Assembly: GCA_017478205.1 (NCBI GenBank)
Contig: JAFVDZ010000001.1
Location: 1 to 48,767 of the forward strand
Length of the DNA stretch: 48,767 nt
Direction of reading: 5' to 3'
Source of the DNA: Spirochaetales bacterium
GTDB taxonomy: Bacteria; Spirochaetota; Spirochaetia; Sphaerochaetales; Sphaerochaetaceae
Shown here: in pieces, positions 4,320-48,767 of the stretch
How positions within the stretch are numbered: the first letter of the stretch is position 1
Layout: every line of letters begins with the position of its first letter
Made by a program: the position numbers and the translations under genes
Notes under the pieces: generated by a model
Databases searched by the model: none
What the model was told of the DNA's origin: nothing
What the model saw: only the letters and a program-made list of their open reading frames with translations

Positions 4320-6353
4320 TCAGTTATCCCTTTCTACAACTGTGATGCAGTTTCTTACCTTCACTGTGAAGTTTTCATCCATCTGTTTGATATGGAAGTC
4401 TTCTTTTTGAGGACAAGCAGTACAAGATAGACCCATAGCATCATGCCGATAGCAGGTTCGGGAGATGAAAACGGGAGGATTGAATGACAGGACTGTTGGC
4501 TCAAATGGCCAGGGGCCTGATTTTTCTCCTCTCTCGAACCAAAGATATCCACCGATCAGATTTGGCACTTCTCTAAACAGCTCTTCTGCTGAAAACCTGT
4601 TAGAAAGGTATAGAAAGACATCGATGAAGTAATCGTATTCAGGATGTGCTTTTGCAAAGCGGACCTGAGAGATATTATTCAGGCCGATTGTTACATTCTC
4701 ATATCCTCTGACAGAATCGAGCATGGTGCTAAAGAGATTTTCCTCCTGGAATGTGATTGGAGGGAAAGTAAAGTAATTCCTGTTGTCGATCATGGTACTT
4801 TCAAAGGACCATGGGAGGTCCTTGGAAAGGAGCTTTCTATCAGGAAGTGTTATGCTTTCAAACTCTTTCTTTGTCTCGTCAATTACAGGTCTCTTGATTT
4901 CAATTTCATCAAGCTGAGAGTAGAACTCTCTCCTGAAGTCCTTCATGATCGAAGGCGGGAGGAAAGGGTACTTGAGGCCTGAATTGTTTATGAACTCAAG
5001 GTTTTTGAGTGTATATCTACTGTCTCCAGATTCAGAGAAGTGCTTGGTCAATACTTCATCAACATCAAGTTGTTTCTTTGCTTCCTGAAGAGCGATGCTT
5101 CTTTTAACTCTCTTGGATAGGGCTTCTGCTACTATCTCATCTTTATTCAGTGTGATCTTGATATCGACAGGCTTTCTGAAAAGAGGAATCTGGACAGAAG
5201 GTGTCTTTTCTCTTCTCGTTGAGTCTGAAATCTTGTAAAGCATAAGCCCTGTTAGGTTTTCATCGCATTCAAGACGCAGTGTCACTGTGTTCCCGACAGC
5301 TTTCAGGATGTTTGCAGAGAACTTGTTTGAAAGAGGAAGACCAAAGCGATCTGATGTAAAGTATTGTAGACCGTCATGGTTCTCTATCTTCACTTTGCTA
5401 TTGATGGTAATGGAATTGGGTGTCTGCCTTATGATGTTGCCACACAGTGCACCCATATGGCCTGGATAGCTTCCTGAAAGCAATGATGGACGATTCTTCC
5501 TATAGTCAAAGTAGCCATTTCCATGCTTTCTTGAAAAACTTGTAGTGATATCGAGTTCACTTTGAGGATCTATTCTTCCTTCATCGAGGATAGTTCTGTA
5601 ATAACGGGTGACAGCTGCAACATATTCAGGACTCTTCAGCCTTCCTTCTATCTTTGCACTGTCTATACCGATTTCATTGAGCTTGATCAGTTCATCTTTG
5701 ACACGTAAATCCTCAAGTGAGAAGAAGTAGCCTCTTTCACCTGTGCTCCTGTCCTCGAACCAACTTCTGCATATCTGTGCACATTCTCCACCATTTGCAC
5801 TTCTTCCGCACTTTAGGAACGAAGCTGAGCAGAGTCCTGAAAAACCATAGCAGAGTGCACCATGGATGAAGGCTTTGAGTTCGATATCAGGGCATGCTTT
5901 CCTGATCTTCTCGATCTCCTTCAGACTCAGCTCTCTTGATAGAACGACGCGCTCAAAGCCAAGGTCCTGAAGTTCCTTTACTCCTTCGATAGTGTGAACC
6001 GCCAATTGAGTCGACCCATGGATAGGAAGAGAGGAAAAGTATTTTCTCATTATCCTTGCAAGTCCAAGGTCCTGAATAATCACACCATCACAGCCATAGA
6101 ATGAAAGCATTGAAAGAAGATCGATACAGCTATCCATACTCTTATCATCAATAAGAGTGTTTACAGTTACATATATCTTCTTTCCATTCTTCAGAGCATA
6201 CGATTTGATCTTGGAAAGATCTTCTTCTGAGAAGTTCACTGCACCTTTTCGGGCAGAGAACTCCTTCAAACCAAAGTAGACGGCGTCAGCGCCGTAGCTG
6301 AAGGCTGTGAGTGCAGTTTCTAAACTGCCTGCGGGTAATGCTAATTCTATCAT
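4320..6353 (-). CDS. U32 peptidase-family protein (RlhA/TrhP-like)
   Basis: 677 aa. The N-terminal TIM-barrel-like region has LALPAGSLETALTAFSYGADAVYFG, and the U32 signature around 158-196 (KAFIHGALCYGFSGLC then NGGECAQICR) supplies Cys168, 175, 182, 191 and 195, probable iron-sulfur ligands. Family members RlhA and TrhP install 5-hydroxycytidine in 23S rRNA or 5-hydroxyuridine in tRNA using prephenate-derived chemistry; the length and long C-terminal extension are closer to RlhA (about 650 aa). A second Cys group (CTACP) lies near the C-terminus. The ATG has no ribosome binding site and sits 9 nt after a -10 hexamer, so the mRNA may be leaderless. The exact substrate cannot be read from sequence. 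Confidence 0.85.
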   Translation of the reverse strand: MIELALPAGSLETALTAFSYGADAVYFGLKEFSARKGAVNFSEEDLSKIKSYALKNGKKIYVTVNTLIDDKSMDSCIDLLSMLSFYGCDGVIIQDLGLARIMRKYFSSLPIHGSTQLAVHTIEGVKELQDLGFERVVLSRELSLKEIEKIRKACPDIELKAFIHGALCYGFSGLCSASFLKCGRSANGGECAQICRSWFEDRSTGERGYFFSLEDLRVKDELIKLNEIGIDSAKIEGRLKSPEYVAAVTRYYRTILDEGRIDPQSELDITTSFSRKHGNGYFDYRKNRPSLLSGSYPGHMGALCGNIIRQTPNSITINSKVKIENHDGLQYFTSDRFGLPLSNKFSANILKAVGNTVTLRLECDENLTGLMLYKISDSTRREKTPSVQIPLFRKPVDIKITLNKDEIVAEALSKRVKRSIALQEAKKQLDVDEVLTKHFSESGDSRYTLKNLEFINNSGLKYPFLPPSIMKDFRREFYSQLDEIEIKRPVIDETKKEFESITLPDRKLLSKDLPWSFESTMIDNRNYFTFPPITFQEENLFSTMLDSVRGYENVTIGLNNISQVRFAKAHPEYDYFIDVFLYLSNRFSAEELFREVPNLIGGYLWFERGEKSGPWPFEPTVLSFNPPVFISRTCYRHDAMGLSCTACPQKEDFHIKQMDENFTVKVRNCITVVERDN

Positions 6354-47602: not shown

Positions 47603-48409
47603 TTACTCTTCGATTTTCCCAACCTGGATTTTGTTGAGCTTTGAAGAAACAGTTCTCTGCTGGTTCATTAGCTTTCTGTTTGATGTCTCAGGTCCGAACT
47701 CTCTCCAGTTCTTTCTTTCAAGTGGTCTGTCAAGAAGTCTGTTTCTCTCGATTGTTCTATGTCTGTTTGCAATTTGTGTGTCATCACCGGCAGAGACAAA
47801 CAGTGAGATTCTGTTTTCAGGATTCAGGCTTGACCAGATATCATTGAAAAGATCGAAATCTGGAAGCTTGACTGTTACAGGGTCTCCAATAAAGGATTCT
47901 GCAGAGCCATCTCCAGTATATGTGTGGATTATTCTTCCAAAGCCATTAAATGGATTGTATTTCCAGATTATCTTCTCGTTCTTATCATTCTTCTTTCTGA
48001 CAATCGAAAGGGAATAATCACTACTTTTTGGGTCGAGGATGGCTGAGATTCTTGGAGTTGAATAAGTGTCCTCTTCAGGTGAGAGCTTGATGATGGCCTC
48101 TCCTAGATCTTTTCCTTCCTTGAGAGCCTTTGCGATCTCAATGCTATGGTCTCCGTTTGCAATTACCCATTTACCATTTGAAAATAGGATTGCATCGTAG
48201 AGTGTCCACTTTGTATCTCCAGCTACTTCTTTTCTGAAGAGCTTTGTTCTTATGCGTCCCTCTTCAAATGCAAGTATTCGGTTCTGGGAATTGCTACTTC
48301 TTCCCATAAGTGCATATGCGATAACCTGTGTTCCGTCAGAGAGGTTTCCAATCAAAATTGTCCTTCCTGGATAGGAAAGAGATGAAAGATATTCTGAAAT
48401 GCTTTTCAC
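47603..48409 (-). CDS. purO: IMP cyclohydrolase, PurO-like
   Basis: 268 aa. Matches the stand-alone IMP cyclohydrolase family first known from archaea and seen in clostridia: YLSSLSYPGRTILIGNLSDG, VIAYALMGRSSNSQNRI, VIANGDHSIEI, TPRISAIL and RIIHTYTGDGSAESF. It closes the last ring in IMP synthesis, replacing that half of PurH. Start: GTG 48409, because AGGAG lies 7 nt upstream and a TATAAT (48443-48448, minus strand) lies between it and the upstream TTG 48475. A terminator lies 24 bp beyond the stop. Confidence 0.85.
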   Translation of the reverse strand: MKSISEYLSSLSYPGRTILIGNLSDGTQVIAYALMGRSSNSQNRILAFEEGRIRTKLFRKEVAGDTKWTLYDAILFSNGKWVIANGDHSIEIAKALKEGKDLGEAIIKLSPEEDTYSTPRISAILDPKSSDYSLSIVRKKNDKNEKIIWKYNPFNGFGRIIHTYTGDGSAESFIGDPVTVKLPDFDLFNDIWSSLNPENRISLFVSAGDDTQIANRHRTIERNRLLDRPLERKNWREFGPETSNRKLMNQQRTVSSKLNKIQVGKIEE

Positions 48410-48509
48410 AACATGTCTCCTAGAATATATATCCTTCCTGTGATTATACTCATTTTCCCACTTTAATTTCCTCAATTATTTACAAATAAAAGAAAAATTT
48501 TTTTATGGG

Positions 48510-48538
48510 TTGACGTTTTTTTTCAAGTTGTGTATCTT
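48510..48538 (+). promoter_or_regulatory. Promoter of initiator tRNA
   Basis: TTGACG (48510-48515), a 17-bp spacer, TATCTT (48533-48538); the expected start is about 10 nt before the mature tRNA. Confidence 0.75.
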
Positions 48539-48554: not shown

Positions 48555-48627
48555 CGCAGGGTAGAGCAGTTGGCAGCTCATCGGGCTCATAACCCGGGGG
48601 TCGTAGGTTCGAGTCCTACCCCTGCTA
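48555..48627 (+). tRNA. Initiator tRNA-fMet (CAT)
   Basis: 73-nt cloverleaf with anticodon CAT in loop CTCATAA. Initiator hallmarks: position 1 C faces T at 72 (unpaired), and three consecutive G:C pairs (GGG/CCC) close the anticodon stem. T arm GTAGG-TTCGAGT-CCTAC is perfect. Discriminator A at 48627; CCA is not encoded. The acceptor is CGCAGGG/CCCTGCT. Confidence 0.93.
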
Positions 48628-48630
48628 TAG

Positions 48631-48750
48631 TGCAGAATACCAGAACATCAAGAGTGACCAAACGGCGCCTTGATGGCGAGCTTCTTCTGGTAGAGCAAGG
48701 CAATCCTCCATTCATGGCACTGGCCATGAAATAGGGTTGCCAATTTTTTT
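48631..48750 (+). ncRNA. Structured RNA downstream of tRNA, ending in a terminator
   Basis: Hairpin 1: outer perfect 8-bp stem (48638-48645 with 48685-48692), inner perfect 7-bp stem (48646-48652 with 48669-48675), a 9-nt bulge on the 3' side and a 16-nt loop. Hairpin 2: 8-bp outer stem with one G-U (48699-48706 with 48734-48741), inner perfect 8-bp stem (48711-48718 with 48723-48730), tetraloop, then AA and seven T. It could be a small RNA cleaved from the tRNA transcript, a 3' trailer or an attenuator for a gene beyond the window. No known family was recognised. 48751-48767 shows nothing. Confidence 0.65.
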
Positions 48751-48767
48751 ATATAAAGGGCAGAAAC

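Follow-up and report, generated by a model that had tools for sequence, protein, structure and literature searches.

A putative structured small RNA gene, usually adjoining the initiator tRNA gene, in Sphaerochaetaceae

The DNA directly behind the initiator tRNA gene of a Spirochaetales bacterium appears to encode a structured non-coding RNA about 120 nt long, which would usually form the second unit of the tRNA-fMet transcript, be freed by tRNA processing and act in trans. We give this reading as a whole a probability of roughly 0.6. Judged by the comparisons described below, the RNA represents a new, undescribed family, and within the searched genomes, as far as the search extended, the family was restricted to Sphaerochaetaceae. 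The stretch analysed (the window, 48,767 nt) is the terminal part of contig C60 of a 1.9 Mb genome (G000).

The tRNA-fMet gene (anticodon CAT) was called at 48555-48627 on the forward strand, as were all elements of the locus described here, and CCA is not encoded. On reading the sequence, the tRNA has an A11-U24 pair, three G-C pairs in the anticodon stem and no standard pair between positions 1 and 72, which we take to be hallmarks of an initiator tRNA. A promoter-like element, TTGACG-17-TATCTT (48510-48538, 9 of 12 consensus matches), lies 5' of it; four such sites were found compared with 2.5 +/- 1.7 in shuffled sequences, so the promoter call is weak when taken alone. The small RNA follows at 48628-48750. 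Since the contig stops there, the window ends 17 nt past the U-run. Contig C44 starts with 141 bases identical to the end of the window and carries a carboxylesterase gene and then rlmN, and the context 3' of the RNA in this genome was taken from this overlap together with synteny with a close relative, G004. Upstream of the tRNA an IMP-cyclohydrolase-like gene occupies 47603-48475 on the reverse strand (PF07826, E 3e-34), and several members of the window's genus have relatives of this gene in the vicinity of fMet.

The minimum-energy fold of 48625-48767 reached -51.4 kcal/mol, compared with -33.2 +/- 3.9 kcal/mol for shuffled sequences (z -4.7), and none of 200 shuffles was as stable. The predicted RNA consists of a bulged hairpin and a terminator hairpin. 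In the first hairpin a short closing stem, P0 (48631-48633 with 48695-48697), is followed by P1 (8 bp, 48638-48645 with 48685-48692) and P2 (7 bp, 48646-48652 with 48669-48675), and a 9-nt bulge, GCGAGCUUC, lies on the 3' side at 48676-48684. The second hairpin (48699-48741) has 17 pairs, 9 and 8 of them flanking a 3/2 internal loop, and A2 and U7 (48742-48750, the U-run at 48744-48750) stand directly 3' of it. The preliminary description of this DNA had recognised two hairpins after the tRNA, and its 15-bp two-part stem, 9-nt bulge and seven T are all present, while the second hairpin is one pair longer than the 16 bp given. It had also proposed that a large single-stranded loop at 48653-48668 could pair with a target. 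This was not supported: a small stem of 5 bp, P3, is predicted there, closing an AAAC loop, and as a conserved element it occupies the loop.

DNA BLAST of the element against 61 genomes (60 relatives and the window's own) gave one clear relative, G004, at 91% identity, and the other matches listed were short and taken as chance; a structural search was therefore needed. In G004 the differences include paired changes in both hairpins, as far as pairing was judged by eye, and two further genomes of the window's genus, G003 and G006, have a two-hairpin layout equal to that of the window with quite different letters. The covariance model R1, made from the G003 and G006 sequences, was run against 120 genomes and recovered the element from three members of a second genus, in every case behind tRNA-Met. 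R1, built from two sequences, matched the window weakly (23 bits) and matched also the reverse strand of its own terminators; one further match, in G053 (E 0.086), was dropped, having neither a tRNA nor such a fold. Model R2 was made from four sequences, none of them from the window. Its matches at E<=1 covered 64 of the 139 Sphaerochaetaceae genomes, the window among them with E 9.1e-7, and the other 75 gave no R2 match. The alignment used below (A9) comprises loci of 61 genomes, selected at R2 E<=1.5e-4 and all matching at E<=1e-4, and leaves out three weak R2 matches (G141, G175 and G091, E 0.2-0.9). Model R3 was built from A9 and includes the window's own sequence, which it matched at E 6.8e-10; the models R2 and R3 match 48634-48750.

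With R3, 46 of 394 genomes of the class matched at E<=0.01, and all 46 were Sphaerochaetaceae, belonging to 6 of 132 genera. Secondary R3 matches (a partial one in G175, 36.9 bits, and one on contig C26 of G034, 35.9 bits) and matches to the terminator half in G017 and G085 were not counted as members. The same holds for a damaged second copy in a Sphaerochaeta genome, G162 (L134 2926-3039, 51 bits), 1.7 kb downstream of the first, in which P1 is broken and the terminator intact. A filter-free search with the full model in 18 loci expected to be negative gave two weak matches, taken as chance (L034, 19.9 bits, overlapping a tRNA and its terminator; L180, 17 bits). A pattern joining the fMet 3' end to the terminator matched 35 named sequences whose titles are all those of spirochaetes; they include Sphaerochaeta halotolerans and other Sphaerochaeta, Candidatus Ornithospirochaeta and Sphaerochaetaceae MAGs.

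In the 58 distinct rows of A9, 93.4% of the cells were paired and 32 of the 38 pairs had changes on both sides. Since A9 was fitted to the model, this count is favoured by the fitting; none of 500 shuffles, however, reached any of five covariation measures, and structures slid by 1-3 columns left only 28-48% paired. The structure that RNAalifold itself proposed for A9 agreed (34 pairs, 28 with double changes). Compensatory changes thus exceeded both shuffled and slid controls, and folds made without any alignment pointed the same way: at least half of the pairs were present for P2 in 56, P3 in 53, P1 in 43, P0 in 37 and the terminator in all of the 58 sequences, and z was below -2 in 58/58 (60 shuffles each). 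Covariation was strongest in P2, where all six model pairs change on both sides, and was seen in P1, P3 and the terminator as well. P0 takes the form GAUG/CAUC or GGU/ACC in the family, with 90% of cells paired, the P0 of the window not being aligned there. The abundance of double-sided changes in homologous stems clearly goes against the lack of such changes that the preliminary description had named as a refutation, and together with the fold it bears out the view that the region is too elaborate for a plain tRNA trailer. Since the alignment contains indels of one or two bases, a coding role is disfavoured.

The unpaired segments are conserved as well. A 9-nt bulge is present in 43 of the 58 sequences and an 8-nt bulge in 13; the letters of the bulge vary between genera and are constant within g3 (GACGGUGAU, 15 of the 58 distinct sequences). 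Of the 61 loci, 35 have CAAAGG as the P3 loop and 15 have CAAAAG; the loop of the window and of G004 is AAAC. Each hairpin keeps its apical motif, C-AAAG-G in hairpin I and C-AAUG-G in hairpin II. The other two forms of the P3 loop leave the idea that CAAAGG pairs with the anti-Shine-Dalgarno sequence unsupported. Two candidates judged by eye were dropped, an alternative hairpin between GGUC of the bulge and GACC behind P1 (g16, G003 and G006), which is not kept in g3, and a stretch of the window resembling a tRNA D-arm, GCUU..GGUAGAGC, which is absent from G004.

The window and eight other member loci were compared with Rfam 15, and at the gathering score they matched tRNA only, in line with the earlier remark that no known family could be recognised. 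The best other match near the element was YrlA (RF02553), with 14.2 bits against 69 required, and TROVE (Ro60), the partner of bacterial Y RNAs, gave no match in 17 genomes, with 1 of 14 controls positive, so that divergent forms may escape. The bacterial SRP RNA model (RF00169) did not match the element, and the true SRP RNA was located elsewhere in 10 of 10 genomes. The 6S RNA model (RF00013) matched in 0 of 10 genomes of the family, and as it was positive in 5 of 14 controls a spirochaete 6S RNA may escape it; the architecture differs also from the closing stem around a large central bubble that typifies 6S RNA. CsrA was matched in 0 of 17 genomes of the family (controls 3 of 14; divergent forms may escape), and the window RNA contains no GGA, relatives having 0-4 copies each, so the RNA does not resemble a CsrA sponge of the CsrB/RsmY type. 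In the open-licence literature on spirochaetes, Sphaerochaeta and tRNA-linked small RNAs no description of the RNA was found, and large surveys of structured RNAs do not name Sphaerochaeta in the portions of their main text that were available.

The conservation of the unpaired segments, the U-run terminator, which is common among small RNAs, and the fixed bulge letters within g3 would fit an antisense RNA whose bulge or P3 loop pairs with mRNAs independently of Hfq. However, these segments are short, the bulge varies between genera, and the Pfam Hfq family was matched in 0 of 17 genomes (controls 5 of 14; divergent Hfq-like proteins may escape). We regard antisense pairing as rather unlikely, while noting that lineage-specific pairing targets would give the same drift of the bulge as recognition by a protein.

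The relation to the tRNA was examined in the 61 loci. A tRNA-Met(CAT) gene stands directly upstream, in the same orientation and with no intervening terminator, in 55 of them, with 2-13 nt between the tRNA and the start of the model match; no CCA follows the discriminator in those linked loci that were inspected. Three more loci are broken by contig ends, two inside the tRNA (L085, L097) and one (L070) retaining its last three bases. One genome, G071, has two fMet and RNA copies on separate contigs (L129, L087), a duplication of the whole pair, and a linked copy in G032 lies outside the 61 loci. The linkage suggested in the preliminary description is thus the rule with exceptions, since three genomes have the RNA with no fMet gene ahead of it. 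Two of these are G019 and G062, where fMet and the RNA share a strand and the RNA sits some 5 kb further downstream, preceded by the promoter-like elements TTGACG-17-TACAGT and TTGACG-17-TATAGT, similar to that of the window. In G082 it lies 28 kb from the intact fMet gene, behind a promoter-like TTGACT-17-TATCTT and a tRNA remnant (L137, about 5225-5278), of which a minihelix of acceptor stem and T-arm is left and the rest lost. In all three genomes fMet has its own plain terminator. The acceptor stem and T-arm are the minimal substrate for tRNA end-processing enzymes. The detached copies speak for selection on the RNA itself and for a possible role of the tRNA as its processing signal; G082 resembles a natural experiment, the minihelix and the RNA being kept and the tRNA body lost, as would be expected if the tRNA served in that way.

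The same comparison weighs on the idea that the hairpins are a cis-acting trailer serving the fMet precursor alone, by termination, 3'-end protection or timing of maturation, with no separate RNA. The close adjacency in 55 of 61 loci and the terminator nature of hairpin II speak for it. Against it, the folded RNA is kept away from fMet in the three genomes above, and neither the conserved 9-nt bulge nor the P3 loop is needed for such roles. Moreover fMet was found in 14 of 16 genomes of the window's genus, and in nine of these relatives a plain terminator-like region without the RNA architecture suffices behind it (in one further genome, G010, the contig ends 18 nt behind the tRNA). We consider the trailer explanation improbable, about as much so as antisense pairing. 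Since 75 of 139 family genomes gave no match and most of the window's genus has the plain terminator, the RNA is dispensable in some lineages. In G031 (L177), of genus g17, a different long hairpin region with a T-run lies behind fMet and gave no model match.

A leader or attenuator regulating the next gene in cis would also end in a terminator, and the longest downstream ORF lies on the strand of the RNA in 31 of 61 loci. The downstream genes are, however, diverse and found on both strands (31 clusters among 54 ORFs), rlmN, the next conserved gene in the window's genome, is convergent to the RNA, and inspection by eye revealed no conserved anti-terminator pairing; we consider this explanation very improbable. 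The gene order in G004 is CinA, the IMP-cyclohydrolase-like protein, fMet, the element and rlmN. The carboxylesterase-family gene (PF00135, L004 832-2478, reverse strand) stands between the RNA and rlmN in the window's genome and is absent there in G004.

That chance hairpins were combined with an ordinary terminator has next to no probability: hairpin II is indeed like terminators elsewhere in Sphaerochaetaceae, for example behind tRNA-Pro of G017, but the explanation is refuted by the covariation and is contradicted by the z of the fold and by the restriction of the model matches to one family. Terminators of the form GGCAAUYUG...GGUUGCC, like hairpin II and lacking hairpin I, were seen at L132 986-1057 (reverse strand) and L133 4785-4849, one of them behind tRNA-Pro.

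The reading we prefer is that the RNA probably has its own gene, is mostly transcribed together with fMet, and is released by processing of the tRNA 3' end. From the anatomy, promoter, tRNA-fMet, small RNA and terminator would make up one two-unit transcript. The enzyme that releases the RNA at the tRNA 3' end would most likely be RNase Z, because CCA is not encoded. The 5' end of the freed RNA would be nearly blunt and base-paired and its 3' end would be set by the terminator, and such a molecule may well be stable. With the fMet promoter driving it, the level of the RNA would normally follow growth and initiation capacity.

After release the RNA most likely acts in trans and is recognised by its shape; action in trans is suggested by the detached copies. 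Because the fold, the length of the bulge and the loop motifs are kept while the letters of the bulge drift, we favour, with modest confidence, recognition by a protein or by the translation machinery over antisense pairing. A more specific and distinctly speculative variant gives the RNA a direct part in translation initiation: it would be made 1:1 with the initiator tRNA, bind the ribosome, one of the initiation factors or the formylating enzyme through its two C-AAxG-G hairpins, and set initiation or ribosome dormancy by growth state. If this were true, a feedback RNA would be embedded in the fMet transcript.

Several known systems show a related arrangement, as described in the available parts of the cited reports. 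In dicistronic tRNA-small RNA genes of archaea and plants, C/D box guide RNAs lie behind a tRNA (PMC3491384); as in these, the spirochaete RNA adjoins the tRNA and an RNase Z cut would give its 5' end. Unlike the guides, which have unpaired ends, it is bacterial, built of two hairpins with a terminator, and there is no reason to expect C/D boxes. In E. coli the 53-nt 3'ETS-leuZ, a trans-acting sponge of RyhB and RybB, is made from a tRNA 3' trailer (PMC8166272), and the RNA described here would likewise come from the 3' trailer region of a bacterial tRNA transcript; it differs in its covarying structure of about 120 nt across six genera and in the lack of an Hfq match. RrA, RrB and RrF of the E. 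coli rRNA operons lie between two terminators and bind Hfq and CsrA (PMC8144298). They share with our RNA a structure conserved across genera and would resemble it also in their place at the end of a stable-RNA transcript and in their growth-linked level; they differ in belonging to rRNA operons and in their partners, neither protein family having been matched in the 17 spirochaete genomes. On these partial sources, the principle that a small RNA is carried by a stable-RNA transcript appears to be shared with all three by analogy, and no common family (Rfam, window and 8 loci) or partner (Hfq and CsrA, 17 genomes) was found.

A viral parallel is offered by the TMER RNAs of murine gammaherpesvirus 68, in which a tRNA-like unit is joined to hairpins that are freed by tRNase Z and feed microRNAs. 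The likeness to the spirochaete RNA is one of layout only.

Studies on small RNAs of Sphaerochaetaceae were not found in the open-licence literature. The present comparison adds a strongly covarying RNA family at the locus of the translation-initiating tRNA, and since cultured Sphaerochaeta such as S. halotolerans carry the RNA, its expression, processing and partner are directly accessible to experiment.
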